This document shows positions 4,266 to 13,985 of a stretch of DNA of 21,192 nt, one piece after another. The DNA is taken from the IMG/VR virus record IMGVR_UViG_3300035688_000076, positions 1 through 21,192 of that record; one strand, written 5' to 3'. The notes under the pieces were generated by a model. The model ran no database searches and was not told where the DNA came from. It saw only the letters and a list, made by a program, of their open reading frames with translations. A program made the position numbers and the translations under genes. The stretch's first letter is position 1. The number at the start of each line of letters is the position of its first letter. This DNA comes from a virus.

Positions 4266-6167
4266 ATGAGAGTCAGAAACGGGACCGGAGTGATCCAGGT
4301 CTTCGGCTCGCCGAGTTTTCAGGCGAGCCCGGGCATTTGGTACAATGTGCCCAGAGACCTGTCTCTACAGCAGGCGATGTTTGGCTACAAGCATCGCCTG
4401 CTTGAGATACAGTTCGAGGGCGATGAGCGCGATTTACTCTGGAAGACCGCCGACGGCACGCACCTGCACTGGATGAGTCCCTTCTCCTTGGGCGATGGCT
4501 ATGCCACCGCTGCGGAGAATATGGTTCATGCCCTGATCCGTCAGGGGATGAAGCTCTACATCCAGCAGTGTTGGTTTGTCAGCACGGACGGGCTGCTGCC
4601 GGAGACGGTGCAGATGCTCAGGGAGCCGATCCCCGGCATCTGTCGCGTGGGCCTTTGTATGGCCACGCCAGGGGAGTTTCGCAAGCTCCCCACGCCCTAC
4701 CGCATCGGCCTGACCATGTACGAGGCCGATGATCCCTTGAAGATTCACCCTGAATGGGCGCATGATTGCCAGCAAGTAGATATGTTGGTCGTGCCCACGG
4801 CCTACTGCAAGAGGGTGTTTGAGGCGTTCGTTCATGTGCCGGTGGTGGTCTCACCTCTGGCGGTGAACCCGATCTACTGTCAGCCCGTCTTGAGGCAGCC
4901 CAAGGAGACCTTCACCTTCATCACGTATGGGACCCTGAGCGGGCGGAAAGCCCCCTTGGAGACCATCGAGACCTTCAAGAAGGCGTTTCCAATAGACCAC
5001 TATCCGCAGGTGAGAATGGAGTTCAAGACCCGTCTGGGGGTCTTTGGCTGGGGGCAGAATCAATTGCCGGGCAAGCTCGATGATCCGCGCATCAAGATCA
5101 TCGATACCGCCACCCCAGGCGCGCCCGCCGACTGGCTGCCGCAGCAGGTTTATGAGTGGCTTGTGGGGGCCGACGCCATGCTCTTCTTGACCAAGGGCGA
5201 GGGCTTCGGGATGCCGCCGAGAGAGGCGATGTCCACGGGCCTGCCGACGATCTTCACCGATTGCACGGGCATGGAGGACGTGGCCAACAAGCGGTATAAC
5301 TGGCCCATCCCCGTGGGGCGCGAAGAGCCCAGTCCCCTGGGCGGCAACTGGAGACTCTACGATGAGGATGCGACCATCGAGACCATGCGCTGGATGGTGG
5401 AACACCGCGAGGAGGCGTATGCCAAGGGCCTCAAGGGGGCGGAGTGGTTTCTGCGCACCTGGGGCAACGAGGCGGCTGGGGCCAAGCTCAAGACCGTCAT
5501 CGAGGGCGTGACGCCGGAGAGCATCAGACGCCCTGTGGTGTCCTATGGCGAGGCGATCACTAAGGGCAACATGCAGACTCACAAGCCATTCTACGAAATG
5601 GCCACCAAAGACCTCAGACATGGGGCCGTGGTGCTCGACCTGGGAGTTGGCGATGGCATGGCGTATGTAGCCCTCAAGGACATGGGTTTCGATGTCTATG
5701 GCATCGTCAAGCCCGGGACCCTGGAGGCGACGGCGGCCAAGATCAAGGCATCGGGTTGCGACTACAAGTTGGCGCAATACGAACTCCTGGGGGTCAGATT
5801 CAATATACTCAAGGACTTGGGTATCCCTCAGCCGGAGTTGGTTATCAGCCAGGGGGTATTGCAGCAGCTTCACGATACCGAGGCCAGGCTCGTCTTTCAG
5901 GCGATGCTGGCCTGCGCTCCCAGAGTATGGTTCAGCGTCCCCTCGGTCTACTATCCCGATGAGTATGCGGAAGGGGCCAGGCTGATGCGCTTGGGGGAGT
6001 GGAAGGATCGCTTCATCCACTTTGTCCTCTTCATGGACTACTACGGCGGGGAGAGGAGATACCTCTGGGGACGGTTGGAGAAGGAAGGGGAGCGCAATAA
6101 CCAGGGGGTGCGGTTCCGAGGGCGTATAGTGGATGGCGTTTGGCATCCCCGGGAGGCCCAAGCATGA
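4266..6167 (+). CDS. Bifunctional glycosyltransferase (GT-B) and SAM methyltransferase
   Basis: 633 residues; ATG with AAAGGGG at 4253-4259. After about 60 residues of unknown N-terminus (containing FGSPSFQASPGIWYNVP) comes a GT-B glycosyltransferase. Its C-terminal nucleotide-sugar site is seen at residues 310-325, EGFGMPPREAMSTGLP, with the E-x7-E pair E312 and E320. From about residue 430 a class I methyltransferase follows: motif I is VLDLGVGDG at 456-464, and residues about 510-545 (PELVISQGVLQQLHD) fit the later core strands. The order is sugar transfer, then methylation on one chain, suggesting that the transferred sugar or its target is methylated. Placement directly after the capsid gene, followed by a second glycosyltransferase with an ATGA overlap, suggests a virion-linked substrate, though host surface or DNA cannot be excluded. 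Confidence 0.82.
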   Translation: MRVRNGTGVIQVFGSPSFQASPGIWYNVPRDLSLQQAMFGYKHRLLEIQFEGDERDLLWKTADGTHLHWMSPFSLGDGYATAAENMVHALIRQGMKLYIQQCWFVSTDGLLPETVQMLREPIPGICRVGLCMATPGEFRKLPTPYRIGLTMYEADDPLKIHPEWAHDCQQVDMLVVPTAYCKRVFEAFVHVPVVVSPLAVNPIYCQPVLRQPKETFTFITYGTLSGRKAPLETIETFKKAFPIDHYPQVRMEFKTRLGVFGWGQNQLPGKLDDPRIKIIDTATPGAPADWLPQQVYEWLVGADAMLFLTKGEGFGMPPREAMSTGLPTIFTDCTGMEDVANKRYNWPIPVGREEPSPLGGNWRLYDEDATIETMRWMVEHREEAYAKGLKGAEWFLRTWGNEAAGAKLKTVIEGVTPESIRRPVVSYGEAITKGNMQTHKPFYEMATKDLRHGAVVLDLGVGDGMAYVALKDMGFDVYGIVKPGTLEATAAKIKASGCDYKLAQYELLGVRFNILKDLGIPQPELVISQGVLQQLHDTEARLVFQAMLACAPRVWFSVPSVYYPDEYAEGARLMRLGEWKDRFIHFVLFMDYYGGERRYLWGRLEKEGERNNQGVRFRGRIVDGVWHPREAQA

Positions 6168-6751
6168 GTGCTCTCTCTCTGCACTTGATTGTCAAGGATG
6201 AGGAGGAACTTCTGGGCAAACTCTTGGCGCATGTGACTCCCTATGTAGGCGAGATGGTCATCGTGGATACCGGGTCCCTGGATGGGACGGTGGCGGTGGC
6301 TAGAGAGTTCACCCGGAGGGTCTATACTTATGACCTGAACGGGGATTTTGGGGCGGCGAGGAACTTTGCTTTGGAACGAGCCATGCTGCCCTGGATTCTC
6401 CATCTCGATGCCGATGAGTGGCCCACGATGGAGCTTCTCACCTATCTGCATGGCTTTACCTCGGCAGGGGAGATCAAGGGAGTGGATGGCCTGAGTATCG
6501 TGCGGCACAACCTGGTGGGAGGCCAAGAGATCGGCAAGGCCACCTGGGAGCGGCATGTGCGAGTGTTCAGGAGTAAGTTGCGCTTTATGGGGCGGCTCCA
6601 TGAAAAGCTAATGATAGACCCCACAAGAATCATGGAGGTCCCTAAGAGCCTCATCCTTCGGCACTACAAGACTGCCGAGAGGCAGGAGAGACAGAATCAA
6701 TTCTACATGCGTTGGGAGGAACAGAGGGCGATTGTAAGAGGGAGAACATGA
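6164..6751 (+). CDS. Family-2 (GT-A) glycosyltransferase, short form
   Basis: 195 residues. The ATG at 6164 overlaps the stop of the upstream gene (ATGA) and has GGAGG at 6152-6156; an upstream TTG at 6140 is in frame but lacks a better site. The opening LHLIVKDEEELLGKLL, then VGEMVIVDTGSLDGT (residues 28-42), DFGAARNFAL (61-70) and ILHLDADE (78-85, DxD metal-binding pair D82/D84) is the classic GT2 pattern of proteins related to SunS and TPR-associated glycosyltransferases. It is shorter than the usual 300 or more residues and appears to lack the C-terminal helical part, so acceptor specificity may differ or it may work together with the preceding enzyme. It is co-translated with that gene, implying one glycan pathway. 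Confidence 0.85.
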   Translation: MSALSLHLIVKDEEELLGKLLAHVTPYVGEMVIVDTGSLDGTVAVAREFTRRVYTYDLNGDFGAARNFALERAMLPWILHLDADEWPTMELLTYLHGFTSAGEIKGVDGLSIVRHNLVGGQEIGKATWERHVRVFRSKLRFMGRLHEKLMIDPTRIMEVPKSLILRHYKTAERQERQNQFYMRWEEQRAIVRGRT

Positions 6752-8184: not shown

Positions 8185-8461
8185 CCTCATCTGGTATCTG
8201 AGGTTCTATCTCGCTGAGAAGTCGTGGACGACTCTCTTGTTGACCCTCTTCCCCTTGGGCCTGATGGTGGAGGGGATGAACAAGGTCAGCATCTTGCAAC
8301 ACAATATAGGCGATCCACGGTTCATCTTTGACGCCTTTGGTATCTTTACGGCCCTTTTGCTCTTGGGCATTGCGAGTTCGCAGACAGTGGGCATCTTTGC
8401 CCACTATCGCCGACTACTGAACGGCATAAAGGAGAATGGAAATGGCAGGATCAAAATCTGA
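8120..8461 (+). CDS. Multi-pass small membrane protein, unknown
   Basis: The frame is open from a GTG at 8051, but a GTG at 8120 has AGAGAGGG at 8103-8110 with good spacing and gives a 113-residue protein beginning MDMLFCVRLGMAG. Three hydrophobic stretches (about residues 9-30, 37-53 and 74-92) suggest three passes. It overlaps the gene before by 65 bases and the gene after by 20. Holin-like in size and topology; function not established. Confidence 0.5.
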   Translation: MDMLFCVRLGMAGLRVLLSSFNLIWYLRFYLAEKSWTTLLLTLFPLGLMVEGMNKVSILQHNIGDPRFIFDAFGIFTALLLLGIASSQTVGIFAHYRRLLNGIKENGNGRIKI

Positions 8462-8867
8462 TTATCTGGAGTGCGCAATCCTGGACCACGTGTTGGGCGG
8501 TGATGCGTTGCCTTGGACTCCTCCGGCCCACGTCTACGTAGCCCTGTACACGGTCGACCCCACTGATGCCGGTGGCGGCACAGAGGTCACGCAAGCGGGC
8601 GGGACATTGTATGCCCGTGTTGAGTTGGACAATGATGATGTTACTTGGCCATCGACAGGGGTTGGGGCCAAGGACAATGACATCGAGATCACCTTCCCCA
8701 CCGCAGGTGCGAACTGGGGCACGGTGACGGCCTTCGGCATCTTCGACTCGGCCATCGGTGGGGCCAACAACCTGCTCTACTGGGGCGAGTTGACGGTCGA
8801 TAAGGCAATCAATACCGGCGACACCGCCAAGTTCGCGGTGGGCGACATCGACATCACCGAGGACTAA
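8442..8867 (+). CDS. Phage virion-associated protein of a widespread family (tail-fibre region)
   Basis: 141 residues from the ATG at 8442, which has AAAGGAG at 8428-8434 at 7 bases; the ATG at 8436 is too close to that site. The sequence SDYLECAILDHVLGG, then VYVALYTVDPTDAGGGTEV, TFPTAGANWGTVTAFGIFD and NLLYWGELTVDKAINTGDT is the typical pattern of a common phage structural protein found near fibre genes in many genomes. It is all-beta in character. Its exact place in the virion is not known to me. It opens the run of surface-protein genes. Confidence 0.7.
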   Translation: MAGSKSDYLECAILDHVLGGDALPWTPPAHVYVALYTVDPTDAGGGTEVTQAGGTLYARVELDNDDVTWPSTGVGAKDNDIEITFPTAGANWGTVTAFGIFDSAIGGANNLLYWGELTVDKAINTGDTAKFAVGDIDITED

Positions 8868-8891: not shown

Positions 8892-10118
8892 ATGTCCACA
8901 GTCAGTGGGCGTTTCGACCTGTCGGATGATGCTTCCAGTGACCCGAACAGCGTTTGGACGAGCGATGCCTACGCCTTCGACACGGATAACACGACCTATG
9001 CCGTCACGTCGACCAGTGGTGGCGTGGACTCGAACTACTTGTTCGGCGGCGGGTCGAGTGTGGCGGGGGCTGGGACCATCAGCCAGGTGCAGGTGCGCAT
9101 CAAGGGCCGCGTCCAAGCCGAAACGGACTATGTGTATGGGGCAGTCTATACCGACGGCTTAGGCGAGCTTCTAGGGACCGCTTCCTATAATGGCATCCTG
9201 CCGGATTGGGGCAACTATGTGACCCTCAATGCCCCATCAGGAGGTTGGGATTGGACTAAGGTCGCTGCCCTGGAGGTCAAGTTCTACCTGGTACGAGGTG
9301 CACTGGCCTACTATGGGCGCATCTACGACTCCGATATTCTCGTCACCTACACCGCCACGGTGGGCCTTGCGGGGGCCAGCGCGGGGGTAGCCGCAGTGAG
9401 CGGGGCTATCCTGCGGACACGAGGACTCGTTGGCGCATCGGCGGGAGTGGCCACAGTCGCGGGGGCGCTGGAGGCACTGGTCAAGCTCCTCGCGGGCCTC
9501 AGTACAGGCGTGGCTGCGGTCTCTGGGGGCATCACTAGGGACCGAGGACTGATTGGGCGCAGCGATGGCGTGGCAGCCGTTACGGGTCTAATCACAGGTC
9601 TTTGGGTCTTGGCGGGGTCCTCAGCAGGCAAAGCCACGGTTAGCGGGGTATTCGGCAAGGATGTCTTCTTGGCCGGGGACAGCGACGGCCTTGCAATCGT
9701 CTCAGCCCTTGTGAGGGCTTTAAGACCCTTGGCGGGGAGCTCGGCAGGGATGGCCACGGTCAGTGGGCTTGTCCTGCGCAGTCGCTCTCTGCACGGAAGC
9801 GCAGCGGGCGTGGCCACGGTCACAGGGAGCTTCTCATGCCTGTTGCAGATCATGGGGTCCTCGGCAGGCGTGGCCACAGTCTCGGCGGTTATTGAGAGCT
9901 TCCTCAGTTTGTCTGGGGTCTCTCACGGTCAGGCCACGGCAGGCGCTCTGGTCTCCCTCATGAAGTTGCTGGTGGGGGCGAGTCATGGGGTGGGGAGCTT
10001 GGCTGTAGTTTTACTCCGCATCCCCTATATGACGGACCTCCTGGTGGTAGAATTGGATGCTTCGGATAGTAGTGTGGTGATCGAGGATTCGGATTCCTAC
10101 GTGGAGTTTGGAGAATAA
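8892..10118 (+). CDS. Repeat fibre-like protein 1: beta-sandwich domain plus eleven ~20-residue repeats
   Basis: 408 residues; AGGAGG precedes the ATG. Residues 1-157 look like a carbohydrate-binding-type beta sandwich (alternating strands, many Tyr/Trp/Asp; ISQVQVRIKG, WGNYVTLNAPSGGWDW, YDSDILVTYT). Residues 159-378 are eleven tandem repeats of about 20 residues with consensus L-x-G-x-S-x-G-x-A-x-V-S-G-x-L-x5, for example LAGASAGVAAVSGAILRTRG; repeats 3 and 10 are one residue longer and shorter, and repeat 11 is degenerate. The C-terminus is LLRIPYM, then EDSDSYVEF. The alternating small and hydrophobic residues with fixed glycines suggest an elongated beta fibre, by analogy with repeat-built viral shafts. 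The second copy of this repeat type is at 12888. Function inferred: adsorption or fibre shaft. Confidence 0.7.
   Translation: MSTVSGRFDLSDDASSDPNSVWTSDAYAFDTDNTTYAVTSTSGGVDSNYLFGGGSSVAGAGTISQVQVRIKGRVQAETDYVYGAVYTDGLGELLGTASYNGILPDWGNYVTLNAPSGGWDWTKVAALEVKFYLVRGALAYYGRIYDSDILVTYTATVGLAGASAGVAAVSGAILRTRGLVGASAGVATVAGALEALVKLLAGLSTGVAAVSGGITRDRGLIGRSDGVAAVTGLITGLWVLAGSSAGKATVSGVFGKDVFLAGDSDGLAIVSALVRALRPLAGSSAGMATVSGLVLRSRSLHGSAAGVATVTGSFSCLLQIMGSSAGVATVSAVIESFLSLSGVSHGQATAGALVSLMKLLVGASHGVGSLAVVLLRIPYMTDLLVVELDASDSSVVIEDSDSYVEFGE
9366..10025 (+). repeat. Tandem array of eleven ~60-bp coding repeats
   Basis: Each unit encodes L-x-G-x-S-x-G-x-A-x-V-S-G-x-L plus five variable residues. Nucleotide copies are clearly diverged, with only short shared words such as GTGGCCACGGTC, so the array is old or selected rather than a fresh slippage product. 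Confidence 0.8.
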
Positions 10119-10121
10119 GTG

Positions 10122-10583
10122 ATGCCTGAAATCTCTTGGGGAACTGTAGCTCAGCAGTTAAAGACGTGGCTACAAAAGCAATATCCGAACGTCGAGTTCA
10201 AGCTCTCCGGCTGGGATCGAGAGCGCGAGGTGGCGCTGCACATTGTCTGGGAGAAGCCAGACGATCCCCTTCCGCCTGCCGTGGTGACATTCCTTTTGGA
10301 ACTCAAGACATCGCTGACCTTCCCACTTGATGATGTTGCTTGGCAACGGTTCAGCAGCGAATATCCTGAGAAGGCGGCCAGACTAATAGAGCTTCTAAGA
10401 GTTGGGGTGAGGACGGAGCAAACAGAGGTTACGACAGGGGCGAAATCGCGTCTGCTTGTGGAGATATTCACTCATCCCAAATTGGCCTTGCGCCTGATTC
10501 GGCGCTTCAGTTACGTAAATCCGGCTAATGACCGGCGCTGGGGAGCGATAGCTTCCATCGAGCATCGCCTGGAGGAGCTATAG
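10122..10583 (+). CDS. Hypothetical protein in the fibre cluster
   Basis: 153 residues from the ATG at 10122 (GGAG at 10110-10113); a GTG immediately before it is less well spaced. Mostly helical and mixed charge: MPEISWGTVAQQLKTWLQKQ at the N-terminus and RLIRRFSYVNPANDRRWGAI towards the C-terminus. No signal peptide, membrane segment or motif seen. It sits between a repeat fibre-like protein and a beta-helix spike, so it could be a fibre assembly factor or a small structural protein. Not recognised. Confidence 0.55.
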   Translation: MPEISWGTVAQQLKTWLQKQYPNVEFKLSGWDREREVALHIVWEKPDDPLPPAVVTFLLELKTSLTFPLDDVAWQRFSSEYPEKAARLIELLRVGVRTEQTEVTTGAKSRLLVEIFTHPKLALRLIRRFSYVNPANDRRWGAIASIEHRLEEL

Positions 10584-10584
10584 C

Positions 10585-11802
10585 ATGGCGACCTGGTATG
10601 TATCAATCAGCACCGGAAACGATGCTAACGATGGTCTGGCCTGGGCCACGGCCAAGGCGACTATCGGAGCGGCGGTGACGGCCTCTGCCAGTGATGACAC
10701 AATCAATATTGGTGAAGGGGTTTACAAAGAGTTTGTTAGTACCACCAAAACCGGTTTAACCTTGCAGGGTTTTGGCTATGTAGTTGTGGATGGCGAGAAC
10801 GCCCGGTCTCTGATTAATGGCACCTATGCCCCAGGAATGAAATTGTACGACCTAGGGTTTCGGGATAGTATTGGTGGAAGAGTTGTGCGGTTGCCATTTC
10901 CTACAGTGGTGAGGTGCAGGTTTTATAATATTATTGGTGGAAGCTTGCCTCCAAGTGATGCTTATAATAGTGGTATTTCGTTTGAGTATGGGGCTGTTGT
11001 CACTGATTGCGTTTTTGCTAATTGCAAAAATGTTGGCTTTCCGGTATCTGAGACTGGGACCAAGAGTATTCTACGAAATACTTGGGATTCTAACTGTTTG
11101 GTGCACATGGCTAATATTTCTGCATCGTCCACAATTCAATTTATAGACAACATTGTGTCCTGCCCATTCTATGCTTGGGCATCGTACTATGGCACTCTAG
11201 ACTACAACGATTACTATGGAAGCATCTATGCATGGATTAGTGGTGCATGGGTTCTTAAAACCTTTGGGGAGTGGCAAACATATACTGGTAAAGATGCCCA
11301 TTCGCTGAATGTCCTACCACAATTCCTGGATGAGACATATAACGATTTGTTTCTAAAATCCGCTTCCCTCCTCAAAACCGCCTCATCTACAGGTATACAA
11401 ATGGGCTGGGGTCGCGTGGGACACCACACCAATGTGCTGAGCACTGAGAGTCAGGCCGCCACGCTGACCAACGTGCATATAGATGATGACGGTTACTACG
11501 TGTTGGACGCGGGGCAACCCAACGGCACAGTGCTGTTCGATGTGATTGATTTGGGCGCGAGTTATAACATCCGGCGGCTGATGTGGCAGGCGACTGAGGA
11601 CCCCTGGCGCTCGGTGATTGACTCAGATGATACGACGGGGACGCCACTCTACAAGACGATTGAGTACCGTTACAAGACTACCTCATTTCTCAAGGGTGAT
11701 GCGCTGCCGGCCTGGAACACGGCGTACAATCTGCAAGACATCAATGTGACCGGACGCTACTTTCAATGGCGCGTCCGACTAACGACGACATCGGGGCCAT
11801 GA
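10585..11802 (+). CDS. Beta-helix tailspike-like protein
   Basis: 405 residues; GGAGGAG at 10571-10577 precedes the ATG. It opens WYVSISTGNDANDGLAWATA with KATIGAAVTAS and then INIGEGVYKE, the signature of right-handed beta-helix (pectate-lyase-like) proteins. Residues about 55-250 show rungs with repeated short strands and Asn/Cys/Phe-rich turns (VVVDGENARSLINGTY, VVRCRFYNIIGG, VTDCVFANCKN). Residues 290-405 form a C-terminal beta domain (HIDDDGYYVLDAG, SYNIRRLMWQA, YFQWRVRLTTT). Phage proteins of this type bind and often degrade host polysaccharide; the catalytic residues cannot be assigned here. DNA of the helix region is AT-rich, with 33% GC in the 60 bases from 10921. Confidence 0.75.
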   Translation: MATWYVSISTGNDANDGLAWATAKATIGAAVTASASDDTINIGEGVYKEFVSTTKTGLTLQGFGYVVVDGENARSLINGTYAPGMKLYDLGFRDSIGGRVVRLPFPTVVRCRFYNIIGGSLPPSDAYNSGISFEYGAVVTDCVFANCKNVGFPVSETGTKSILRNTWDSNCLVHMANISASSTIQFIDNIVSCPFYAWASYYGTLDYNDYYGSIYAWISGAWVLKTFGEWQTYTGKDAHSLNVLPQFLDETYNDLFLKSASLLKTASSTGIQMGWGRVGHHTNVLSTESQAATLTNVHIDDDGYYVLDAGQPNGTVLFDVIDLGASYNIRRLMWQATEDPWRSVIDSDDTTGTPLYKTIEYRYKTTSFLKGDALPAWNTAYNLQDINVTGRYFQWRVRLTTTSGP

Positions 11803-11803
11803 C

Positions 11804-12202
11804 ATGGCAGGAGAACCCTATCTCAAATGGTTGGCATTAGAGTGGGTGACGAGCGGGCCGATCCCGCGAGTCAACCCCTATTTCCGCTGGTTGGCGTTTG
11901 AGGGCATGACCAAACCGAACCTGTTTCTGACCGTGCAGACTAGCGCGGGAGTGGCCATATCAGGGGTGTCGGTGACATTCGCCGACCAGACAGGCAATCC
12001 AACATATAACCTGTCAGGCACAACGGACGCTGCCGGATTGGTGGCTACTTATCTGTATGACAATCACACCTATCTGGTGACACTGAGCAAAGCGGGATAC
12101 CGAACACGGAGTGTAACCTACGTGATGGATAGGCGGCGGGAGGAGATTGAGGTGCTGACACCGGCAGAGCGTCGATCTCGGATTCGGGGGCATGGCCTAT
12201 GA
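11804..12202 (+). CDS. Small protein with carboxypeptidase-regulatory-like beta sandwich
   Basis: 132 residues; the ATG follows the spike stop by one base. Residues 1-35 contain a short duplicated motif, PYLKWLALE and PYFRWLAFE. Residues 38-110 (LFLTVQTSAGVAISGVSVTF, then TTDAAGLVATYLYDNHTYLV, then SKAGYRTRSVTY) have the pattern of the transthyretin-like CarboxypepD-regulatory fold, a common accessory domain on phage tail proteins. The tail after residue 112 is strongly charged. It ends in an ATGA overlap with the next gene, so the two are translationally coupled. Role inferred as a spike or fibre accessory. Confidence 0.6.
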   Translation: MAGEPYLKWLALEWVTSGPIPRVNPYFRWLAFEGMTKPNLFLTVQTSAGVAISGVSVTFADQTGNPTYNLSGTTDAAGLVATYLYDNHTYLVTLSKAGYRTRSVTYVMDRRREEIEVLTPAERRSRIRGHGL

Positions 12203-12783
12203 TCTACAAGAACATTGCCGGCCAGAAGTGTCTCGTATACGCCTGGAACGCAGCTAATGGCACGCCCAAGACTGGCGATGCGGGCAATATCACGGCTTAT
12301 GTTTCCAAAGATGGTAGTGGGGCGGCCCCATCTGATGACGTGAACCCAAGTGAGTTGGACGCCACCAATCTGCCAGGTATTTACGCATTTGACTTAGCGC
12401 AAGCGGAGACGAACTGTGATTTATTTCTCTTGGCAGCAAAAAGTACCACGGCAGACATACAAATTGAGCCGGTTATTGCCTATACGACCGCCATGACCAC
12501 GACGCGGGCAGCTTATCTAGATGCACTCATATCCAGTCGCGCTGCCCCTGAAGATGAGATGGCCCTGACGGATGCCGCTATCGATGCCATCTTGGACGAG
12601 GTTGTAGAGGGATCACTGACCATGCGACAACTCGTCCGCCTGATAGCGGCTGCTGAGCTAGGGAAGACATCCGGCATGGCCGAAAAGTTGCCCGTGTTCA
12701 AGGCGGCAGATGGTAACACAACACGGATTGAGGGTGTCTTGGATGAGGACAACAACCGCACTTCCGTGACCTTGACGCCGTAA
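12199..12783 (+). CDS. Phage tail-fibre-region protein with BppU-like N-terminus
   Basis: 194 residues. The N-terminal 95 (IYKNIAGQKCLVYAWNAANG, ITAYVSKDGSG, then LDATNLPGIYAFDLAQAET and IQIEPVIAYT) are a very common phage pattern for a small beta-sandwich on baseplate or fibre proteins. The C-terminal part (ALTDAAIDAILDEVVEGSL, then MRQLVRLIAAAELGK and NNRTSVTLTP) is the helical-to-strand ending that often accompanies it. The start overlaps the previous stop (ATGA). It probably forms part of the adsorption apparatus; the assignment rests on remembered sequence patterns. Confidence 0.65.
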   Translation: MIYKNIAGQKCLVYAWNAANGTPKTGDAGNITAYVSKDGSGAAPSDDVNPSELDATNLPGIYAFDLAQAETNCDLFLLAAKSTTADIQIEPVIAYTTAMTTTRAAYLDALISSRAAPEDEMALTDAAIDAILDEVVEGSLTMRQLVRLIAAAELGKTSGMAEKLPVFKAADGNTTRIEGVLDEDNNRTSVTLTP

Positions 12784-12799
12784 GTGGAGTTTGAGTGAA

Positions 12800-12880
12800 A
12801 TGACCTTCTCGCCTCGCACGGACGACATAGACAACGTGATGGCTTTAGAGGGAGCTTCTGCGACGTCCAAGTCTAAGTAG
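12800..12880 (+). CDS. Very small ORF, 26 residues, unknown
   Basis: An ATG at 12800 with GGAG at 12786-12789 opens a 26-codon frame (MTFSPRTDDIDNVMALEGAS, then ATSKSK) ending 7 bases before the GTG of the repeat protein. It fills an otherwise empty 104-base gap. It may be a true small protein or a leader for translational coupling. No homology recognised. Confidence 0.35.
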   Translation: MTFSPRTDDIDNVMALEGASATSKSK

Positions 12881-12887
12881 GTGATCC

Positions 12888-13985
12888 GTGACTAAAGGCG
12901 GCTGGTGGAGCGGATGGTTTAATAACTGGTTCGATGAGTGGTTTGGCACTGTCGTCGGTATCCAACGCCTCGCCGCACAAAGCGCAGGAGTTGCAAGCGT
13001 CAGTGGCTCTTTAACAATCGAGAGAGGTTTGGTTGGAGCTTCAGCGGGGGCCGCCACGGTAGCAGCAGCGATCTCCAGGATGAGGGGCCTGCTAGGGTCC
13101 TCGGCGGCGGCCGCGACAGTCAACGGGCAACTTCCGGTTCTAAGGCCCTTGCAGGGTCGTTCAGATGGGCAGAGTTCGGTTCAGGGAGCCATAGTAGCTC
13201 TGTTGGCCCTGGCTGGGCAAAGCGATGGCCTGTCATCCGCATCAGCTATCCTCCAATCACTTGTATGGCTGCAAGGGTCTACGGCAGGCACAAGTGCCGT
13301 TGCAGGATACCTCACAGGGGTCTTTACCCTCGCGGGGCAGTCTGATGGCCTGGCAGCGGTCTTAGCAACTATATCCAGGATTCGCGGGTTGGCCGGGCTC
13401 TCAGAGGGAGCGGCCACGGTCACGGGGCAGTTGCTCATCTGGAGAGGACTCCAAGGGCGTTCGGATGGCTTGGCGAATGTGCAGGGGGCCATCGGGAGAT
13501 TGAGGGGCTTGATAGGGAGAGCCGATGGGGTCGCCCTGGTATCGGCGGCTCTGAGCGCTCTCAGGCCCCTGGCGGGAGCCTCGAATGGGCTGAGTGTTGT
13601 CAGTGGGGACCTGTGGAGGATTCGCGGGCTTGAGGGGACATCAGATGGTCTCTCCCTGGTAGCAGGGTCCCTGCTCAGGGAGCGGGGCTTGGCTGGGGTG
13701 AGCCAAGGGATTGCCACGGTCTCTGGCAAGTTCCTGATGACCTTGGCCCTTCAGGGGCGGTCTGATGGACGCAGCCTGGTGAGCGGTGAGTTGCCTCTGT
13801 TACTCATCTTGGCAGGGGCAAGTCATGGGCAGGCTGAGGTGCAGGCCCTACTCAGCAGGATTCTGCGACTCAGCGGTGAGAGTGATGGGCAGGCCACGGT
13901 GTTGGGGATTTTGCTCAGGATACCGAGGATGGTAGAGCCGCTTTACATCGTCATCGAAGACAGCGCATCAAGGGTTGTCTTCTAA
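12888..13985 (+). CDS. Repeat fibre-like protein 2: Trp-rich N-terminus plus sixteen 20-residue repeats
   Basis: 365 residues from a GTG at 12888, with a modest TAGGTGAT site close by. The N-terminal 20 residues carry five Trp and four Phe (GGWWSGWFNNWFDEWFG). Residues 28-347 are sixteen tandem repeats of exactly 20 residues without insertion or deletion, consensus L-x-G-x-S-D/A-G-x-A/S-x-V-x-G-x-L-x-x-x-R-x, for example LQGRSDGLANVQGAIGRLRG. The end is LLRIPRM, then IEDSASRVVF, a signature shared with the protein at 8892, so the two are paralogues with different N-terminal heads. An elongated beta-rich fibre or shaft is inferred. The Trp-rich tip could bind a partner protein, membrane or glycan. 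Confidence 0.7.
   Translation: MTKGGWWSGWFNNWFDEWFGTVVGIQRLAAQSAGVASVSGSLTIERGLVGASAGAATVAAAISRMRGLLGSSAAAATVNGQLPVLRPLQGRSDGQSSVQGAIVALLALAGQSDGLSSASAILQSLVWLQGSTAGTSAVAGYLTGVFTLAGQSDGLAAVLATISRIRGLAGLSEGAATVTGQLLIWRGLQGRSDGLANVQGAIGRLRGLIGRADGVALVSAALSALRPLAGASNGLSVVSGDLWRIRGLEGTSDGLSLVAGSLLRERGLAGVSQGIATVSGKFLMTLALQGRSDGRSLVSGELPLLLILAGASHGQAEVQALLSRILRLSGESDGQATVLGILLRIPRMVEPLYIVIEDSASRVVF
12969..13928 (+). repeat. Tandem array of sixteen 60-bp coding repeats
   Basis: Period is exactly 60 bases throughout, with glycine codons in register in nearly every unit. Nucleotide copies have diverged, so the fixed period with varied sequence points to selection on repeat length. Confidence 0.85.

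Follow-up and report, generated by a model that had tools for sequence, protein, structure and literature searches.

An uncultivated phage with a long tail has two neighbouring genes, here called P1 and P2, that each encode a protein with repeated 20-amino-acid units. We consider it reasonably probable that both proteins serve as modular shafts of beta repeats in the fibre or spike apparatus, encoded beside a Gp80 adaptor. The analysis shows the repeats, their relatives in other viruses, the linkage to Gp80, and an exchange of N-terminal heads and purifying selection in one pair of relatives; a rod shape, docking on Gp80, a proximal C-terminus and a role in host contact are inferred from these. 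Because many unrelated phages encode a 20-residue repeat protein beside Gp80, a gene known for fibre attachment, proteins of the P1/P2 type are probably a widespread and undescribed part of the fibres with which phages contact their hosts. The homologous arrays, the Gp80 linkage, the head exchange in one pair and the hairpin predicted for each unit are new here. The window, that is, the whole stretch of DNA analysed, comprises 21,192 nucleotides, and the features of the locus are as follows.

8436..8867, + strand: Gp80-like gene, 143 aa; matches PF23140 'Podophage GP4 fiber I protein gp80'; about 24-25 bases upstream of P1
8892..10118, + strand: P1, repeat protein of 408 aa; AGGAGG upstream of the ATG
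8892..9365, + strand: P1 N-terminal head, 158 aa (sequence comparison)
9366..10028, + strand: P1 array, 11 units, one of 21 residues (repeat analysis)
10029..10115, + strand: C-terminal segment of P1, similar to its counterpart in P2 (direct sequence; a stretch 43% identical between P2 and P1 reaches the C-terminus)
10119..10583, + strand: 154-aa protein; no family matched
10585..11802, + strand: beta-helix protein of the pectate-lyase type, probably a tail spike (PF13229, E=9e-4, below cutoff)
11804..12202, + strand: Ig-like / CarboxypepD_reg-like (Big_1-like) protein (PF13620, E=2e-5; PF02369, E=4e-4; both below cutoff)
12199..12783, + strand: 194-aa protein; no family matched
12888..13985, + strand: P2, repeat protein of 365 aa; GTG start
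12888..12968, + strand: P2 N-terminal segment, 27 aa, Trp/Phe-rich, beginning MTKGGWWSGWFNNWFDEWF (sequence)
12969..13928, + strand: P2 array, 16 units, each of exactly 20 residues (repeat analysis, predicted structure)
13929..13982, + strand: C-terminal segment of P2, similar to its counterpart in P1 (direct sequence; short strands predicted)

Sequence similarity assigns gene 8436..8867, upstream of P1, to the Gp80 fibre/adaptor family (PF23140). It matched the PF23140 profile over positions 2-128 of 128 (E=5.9e-40, 137 bits against a cutoff of 27), chain 8jou_a of podophage GP4 over residues 7-138 (E=8.6e-13) and PHROG 240, labelled 'head protein' (E=3.4e-27). It thus shares its family with Gp80 of GP4 (8jou), and P1 and P2 matched no chain of the GP4 entries. 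A preliminary description of this DNA had the two repeat genes bracketing a spike cluster, which is fair because the beta-helix gene, the CarboxypepD_reg/Big_1-like gene and two unassigned genes lie between them; the beta-helix gene also matched PHROG tail fibre families (E=0.001-0.005).

The repeats reported in that description are real: both open reading frames exist, and their arrays lie far above chance. Lag-20 protein self-identity was 0.39 in P1 and 0.40 in P2, compared with maxima of 0.23 and 0.19, respectively, in 5000 shuffles over lags 10-40, and the PSSM chain scores were 216 and 329 compared with shuffled maxima of 20 and 10. In P2, sixteen 20-residue units without an indel occupy 12969..13928, exactly as claimed. 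The eleven units of P1 also begin where they had been placed, at 9366, but this array is not free of indels and ends at 10028 instead of 10025, because one extra residue (aa 199) follows unit 2. The copies were rightly called diverged, with mean pairwise identities of 41% (amino acids) and 44% (DNA) among the P2 units and 41% (DNA) among the P1 units; the amino acid value for P1, 29%, is too low because the units beyond the insertion were compared in the wrong frame of the repeat. With DNA identities of 41-44%, the copies within both arrays are old. Tandem Repeats Finder reported neither array, and no model in Pfam or NCBIfam covered them. The N-terminal regions differ between the two proteins, as had been noted (158 residues in P1, 27 in P2). 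The P1 head, which matched nothing in Pfam and only weakly a BA6 tail-fibre (E=0.1), shares 37-39% identity with the N-terminal part of a phage protein of 1441 aa (L043), and no 20-residue array was found in that protein.

A profile search with the repeat and a comparison of unit counts, both proposed in the preliminary description, proved productive: more than 20 viral contigs and three cyanophages carry homologous arrays, with unit numbers from 2 to 41. The cyanophages (Pan4, Mae-JY02 and Mel-JY03) encode 13-unit proteins at the end of the tail module, with PSSM scores of 225-230 compared with a shuffled maximum of 19; their array is of the P1/P2 type, whereas a Gly-rich N-terminal part replaces the head, and no Gp80 gene was found in Mel-JY03. 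The profile of PHROG 22415, a family of the same repeat class with no function, structure or name attached, matched the P2 array over 143 residues (E=4.9e-7) and P1 only at E=0.028; the match spans array stretches only, not heads or C-termini. A tblastn search of P1 and P2 in phages gave no match, probably owing to low-complexity masking, and a search for related loci with P2 as the query returned none.

In one pair of relatives (L033 and L039), Gp80 and the array are about 91-92% identical and the N-terminal heads are unrelated, with the boundary falling just before the array. The dN/dS ratio over the 177 codons of the common part was 0.13, which indicates purifying selection in this pair. 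LamG-type domains (PF13385) are present in four relatives (L004, L011, L034 and L039).

To quantify the linkage to Gp80, a gene was scored as period-20 when its best lag was 20 and above shuffles, and as adjacent when it lay within 2.5 kb 3' of Gp80. At 14 of 23 Gp80 loci a period-20 gene occurred at most 2.5 kb downstream; by the lag test used, it was absent from the other 9. Period-20 ORFs made up 14/68 of those near Gp80 (2.5 kb 3') and 2/252 of the others (p=1e-8), and the best lag was 20 in 14 of the 16 ORFs near Gp80 at p<=0.01. Starting from the repeats, a Gp80 HMM match was present in 7/23 loci, many of them short; in L004, L019 and L024, Gp80 lies directly upstream of the repeat gene on the same strand. 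Both P1 and P2 have a best lag of 20 (p=0.003 each); P1 begins about 24-25 bases from Gp80, and P2 lies 4.0 kb away, so that only P1 falls within the distance used.

Bcep22-like phages provide a comparison for which virion evidence exists. The period-20 gene gp56 of BcepIL02 is flanked by homologues of 8jou_a and 8jou_D, two proteins of one solved GP4 entry, and a homologue of the fibre chain 8jov_1 follows. BcepIL02 gp56, BcepMigl gp57 and JC1 gp54, the last homologous to BcepIL02 gp56 (53%), come after Gp80 and before spike/fibre genes, as P1 does, and the first two have the 20-residue period of P1 and P2. However, the Bcep22-like proteins carry a short N-terminal peptide in place of a head domain, and their C-terminus differs from that of P1 and P2. 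No significant homology was detected between the P1/P2 and Bcep22-type repeats (hhalign E=0.41, PSSM chain at or near the shuffled level), and only the period of 20 and the gene position are common to P1/P2 and the Burkholderia phage repeats.

Virion proteomics, another check that had been proposed, gives conflicting answers among these relatives, and here the explanation that P1 and P2 are assembly factors, which would fold, trimerise or mount adjacent spikes or fibres and then leave without being virion parts, has to be weighed. The virion mass-spectrometry list of JC1 includes gp53, gp55 and gp56 and not gp54 (PMC9144972), and Gp80 was found in the same proteome (PMC9144972). In phiM5, Gp80 and the next fibre carry a note of detection in the particle proteome and phiM5_18, the gene 3' of Gp80, does not, and POI1126 gp16 is labelled only 'hypothetical' between two 'virion-associated' genes. 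These cases favour an assembly factor. However, the deposited records of BcepIL02 gp56 and BcepMigl gp57 label them virion-associated, tryptic proteomics could under-detect arrays with little K/R, and lectin-like domains in array chains together with up to 41 units suit an exposed structural protein better. We therefore consider an assembly role rather unlikely.

The consensus of the unit is L1xG3xS5-D/A6-G7-xA9xV11xG13xL15, followed by a 5-residue loop; G3, G7, V11 and L15 are kept even in phages unrelated to one another, and even-numbered positions vary freely. Structure prediction, also proposed as a check, modelled each unit of the P2 array, as a monomer, as a hairpin of two strands with moderate confidence (AlphaFold with alignment, pLDDT 64, pTM 0.52), with strand 1-5, turn 6-7 and strand 8-15 in nearly every unit. 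A single-sequence prediction of P2 gave helices (pLDDT 40) and was uninformative. The PDB neighbours of the P2 model were weak (E>=1.1) and mostly beta-solenoids or beta-helices, the top one being the CsgA curli subunit, whose repeats of about 20 residues are likewise strand-turn-strand. The array might accordingly be a monomeric, curli-like or beta-roll-like solenoid that serves as an adhesive or carbohydrate-binding surface, its repeats binding host glycans or other particles, so that length would set avidity and not reach; the two strands per unit and the widely varying unit numbers would fit. However, none of the neighbours was significant, P1 and P2 matched no Pfam family even at E<=1, the curlin repeat included, and their context is that of a phage. 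In addition, several relatives already have dedicated lectin-like domains, and no conserved candidate binding residues were seen at the even-numbered positions, so that this explanation seems quite improbable.

Unit length is 20 residues in 82% of the relatives' units. The preliminary description held that the exact period implies selection on repeat length, which is too strong a statement, since units of +1 and +2 are common in relatives and P1 has one. None of the 48 insertions that could be placed in units fell at positions 1-7, all being within 8-20, and strand 1 and the turn are therefore a better site for the constraint. The pLDDT of 40 in single-sequence folding and the strongly differing unit numbers might suggest that repeat expansion has merely produced flexible linkers that are under little constraint and have no defined fold. 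This is very improbable, given the 16 indel-free units of P2 at about 41% identity, the dN/dS of L033/L039, the confinement of insertions, the four conserved positions and the pLDDT of 64 with an alignment.

The shaft of adenovirus and reovirus fibres is a trimeric triple beta-spiral with a repeat of about 15 residues. This viral shaft resembles P1 and P2, as predicted, in its tandem repeats of strand, turn and strand, in which hydrophobic residues alternate, but its repeat length differs from their period of 20. No match to the repeat proteins was found in the PDB, the GP4 entries included; a PDB search with the repeat profile returned designed repeat proteins as best matches (E>=0.02), which we took as chance. 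Comparing families by a 20-position hydropathy profile did not work even where the PSSM links them, since indels disrupt the 20-column register, and no evidence was drawn from it.

The shaft reading of P1 and P2 suggests the following arrangement. Each unit would fold as a beta hairpin that turns tightly at positions 6-7, and the units would stack into an elongated rod or spacer whose length is set by their number. One end would bear exchangeable N-terminal modules, such as the 158-residue head of P1, the aromatic segment of P2 or the lectin-like domains of relatives, and the other, putatively proximal, end the C-terminal segment common to P1 and P2. The cassette is headed by a Gp80-type protein, which in podophage GP4 belongs to the fibre/tail-adaptor region; P1 and P2 probably dock on this protein or on neighbouring spikes. 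The fibre shaft of adjustable length that had been guessed at the outset is partly supported: it agrees with the linked Gp80 gene, the spike genes between the arrays, the exchangeable heads, the 2 to 41 units of relatives and the all-beta prediction; against it stand a fold predicted only moderately and the conflict in virion proteomics.

A bolder and more doubtful version is that the hairpin repeat is an undescribed fibrous fold forming the length-adjustable spacer of a widespread Gp80-headed cassette. Its polarity would be inverted, with the C-terminal end on the particle and the N-terminal head toward the host, unlike ordinary tail fibres, and the P1/P2 and LTTxIPLxGAA type would share one structure with the Bcep22 type despite the lack of detectable sequence similarity.

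Existing annotations of such proteins read 'hypothetical', 'serine-rich adhesin' or even 'glycerophosphodiester phosphodiesterase'. The link to a structurally characterised fibre/adaptor gene indicates where such proteins could be sought in virions already available, those of Bcep22-like phages and phiM5, and makes tests of unit number and head swaps possible, and recombination at the repeat boundary may explain how phages change fibre reach or binding module.

One feature of the two proteins was missed in the preliminary description: their C-termini are alike, each with LLRIPxM followed by a short DS/V-rich strand.

We compared the arrays of the two 20-residue-repeat proteins, P1 (ATG, 8892-10118) and P2 (GTG, 12888-13985), with the preliminary description. 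P2 does comprise 16 units of exactly 20 residues each at 12969-13928, as claimed; the 11 units claimed for P1 likewise begin at 9366, but the array ends at 10028 and carries one extra residue after unit 2. Self-identity at lag 20 was 0.39-0.40 in the two proteins (shuffled maxima, 0.19-0.23), and the PSSM chain scores were 216 for P1 and 329 for P2, versus shuffled maxima of 20 and 10. The reported divergence of the copies was borne out, with a mean DNA identity of 41-44% and about 60% for the best pair, and Tandem Repeats Finder called no array in either gene; thus, the expansion is old. In P2, lags 40 and 60 scored about as well as lag 20, so no higher-order unit is visible. P1 and P2 are 43% identical where alignable and have a C-terminal LLRIPxM segment in common.

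Among 314 successive units, 256 have 20 residues, 48 have 21-22, and the rest have 18, 19, 23 or 24; the best-scoring insertion point lay within positions 1-7 in none of the 48 longer units and mostly at 11-20. AlphaFold2, given an alignment of 52 rows (pLDDT 63.9, pTM 0.52), predicted an almost uniform pattern across the units: a strand at 1-5, a turn at 6-7, often D-G, A-G, N-G or H-G, and a strand at about 8-15. A Foldseek search of the PDB returned no significant match (CsgA was top, E=1.1), and the other neighbours were mostly left-handed beta-helix enzymes or other solenoids; the nearest BFVD entries were mostly uncharacterised phage proteins, with E-values of at least 0.0066. The predicted hairpins and these neighbours make it plausible that the arrays form an elongated beta structure, either a solenoid or an intertwined oligomer. 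Because length depends on the fold, no nanometre lengths are given. For a repeat protein of contig L022 (884-2548, minus strand), the '6-fold beta flower' family PF21786 scored 23.8 bits, below its cutoff of 34, which offers a possible fold lead.

No Pfam or NCBIfam model covered the arrays, and PHROG 22415, of unknown function, matched P2 (E=4.9e-7). A degenerate two-unit DNA pattern, first validated on the window, was run on IMG/VR; its matches there, and one in a bacterial bin, encode the same array in their frames. A position-specific model gave 2 to 41 units per protein among the relatives. LTTxIPLxGAA-type repeats of four contigs (L032, L033, L034, L039) scored 150-281 against at most 19 for shuffled sequences, with a PSSM iterated on a set that included them. 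Contig L017 carries a repeat gene of at least 10 units right beside another of 41; therefore, pairing is not unique to the window. In the cyanophages Pan4, Mae-JY02 and Mel-JY03, the repeat protein is encoded at the end of the tail module; in the latter two (PP395635, PP395636), it is labelled 'glycerophosphodiester phosphodiesterase', apparently a mis-annotation. In a Bacteroidetes bin (L025, 1462-4269, minus strand), one chain carries GxATVxG-type units followed by a DxxHxHxxDN-type repeat of about 20 residues, hinting at a common scaffold. In contig L030, an RxLxQxVxExD-type motif is common to the C terminus of a two-unit repeat protein and the N terminus of a nearby gene (9373-9831, 10856-11449).

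P1 is preceded, at a distance of 24 bases, by a gene of the PF23140 family (Gp80 of podophage GP4), which also matches the solved chain 8jou_a. To examine this linkage, 23 loci were chosen by Gp80 similarity alone, excluding the window and near-duplicates, and an ORF was counted when its best period was exactly 20 (p<=0.01) and it lay at most 2.5 kb downstream of Gp80. Such an ORF was present in 14 of the 23 loci. Period-20 ORFs made up 14/68 of those near Gp80 versus 2/252 of the others (Fisher p=1e-8, which is indicative because ORFs are assumed independent, some phages are kin and the 2.5-kb limit was set after the first loci had been viewed). Of the 16 ORFs near Gp80 that reached p<=0.01, 14 had lag 20. 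In the reverse test, 7 of 23 loci selected by their repeats, many of them short, had a Gp80 match. P1 occupies the canonical place beside Gp80; P2 lies 4 kb off, past the spike genes.

The Bcep22-like phages have the order Gp80, period-20 protein, 92-residue protein, fibres. The 92-residue protein and the first fibre match 8jou_D (E=2.9e-20) and 8jov_1 (E=2.5e-24), respectively; thus, on both sides the period-20 gene of this group has a homologue of a protein from the same solved GP4 structure. For the repeat protein, the PDB gave no matching chain. Homology between the P1/P2 and Bcep22-type repeats was tested and none was found; the two may be analogous.

The conflicting virion data in relatives are the main weakness of the case. 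BcepIL02 gp56 and BcepMigl gp57 were deposited as virion-associated, and, according to the JC1 paper (PMC9144972), Gill et al. applied mass spectrometry to these phages. In JC1 virions, gp53 (Gp80), gp55 and gp56 were detected but the repeat-protein homologue gp54 was not (PMC9144972), and in phiM5 detection is noted for the Gp80 homologue, without such a note for the next gene. Because of this conflict, we also considered that the repeat proteins may instead be assembly factors.

Comparison of relatives points to modular proteins. Contigs L033 and L039 are 91% identical at the DNA level across Gp80 and 92% across the array, while the sequence between is unrelated; the common part starts just ahead of the array, at residue 36 of the L033 protein and residue 246 of the L039 protein, and has a dS of 0.226 and a dN of 0.029 (ratio 0.13, 177 codons). 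LamG-type lectin-like domains are N-terminal in L034 and L039; those of L004 and L011 precede the repeats or lie among them. The P1 head recurs N-terminally in another, long phage protein; an array was sought there and none found. A shared C terminus combined with a variable N terminus suggests that the C-terminal end would be proximal to the particle.

The 21,192-base IMG/VR record is classed as a possible fragment, and its gene content matches a long-tailed phage whose head genes are of the T4 type:

T4-like portal, PF07230
Gp23-like major capsid protein, PF07068
SU10-type adaptor, PF24175
Tape-measure-like protein, PF10145

The repeat-gene region is located between the adaptor and the tail genes, and an HNH endonuclease gene (PF13392, 17247-17975) is inserted amid the latter. 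Two glycosyltransferase genes, 4266-6167 (PF13692/PF00534) and 6140-6751 (PF00535), stand in the structural module between the major capsid and adaptor genes, and might possibly serve glycosylation of the virion or host surface; phage DSL-LC06 (L046) likewise has several upstream of its Gp80 gene. Contig L042 (IMGVR_UViG_3300035179_000320) ends inside a capsid gene 99% identical to that of the window over the matched part. It also has the window's portal and following gene and, upstream, further genes, some glycosyltransferase-like or methyltransferase-like by eye.
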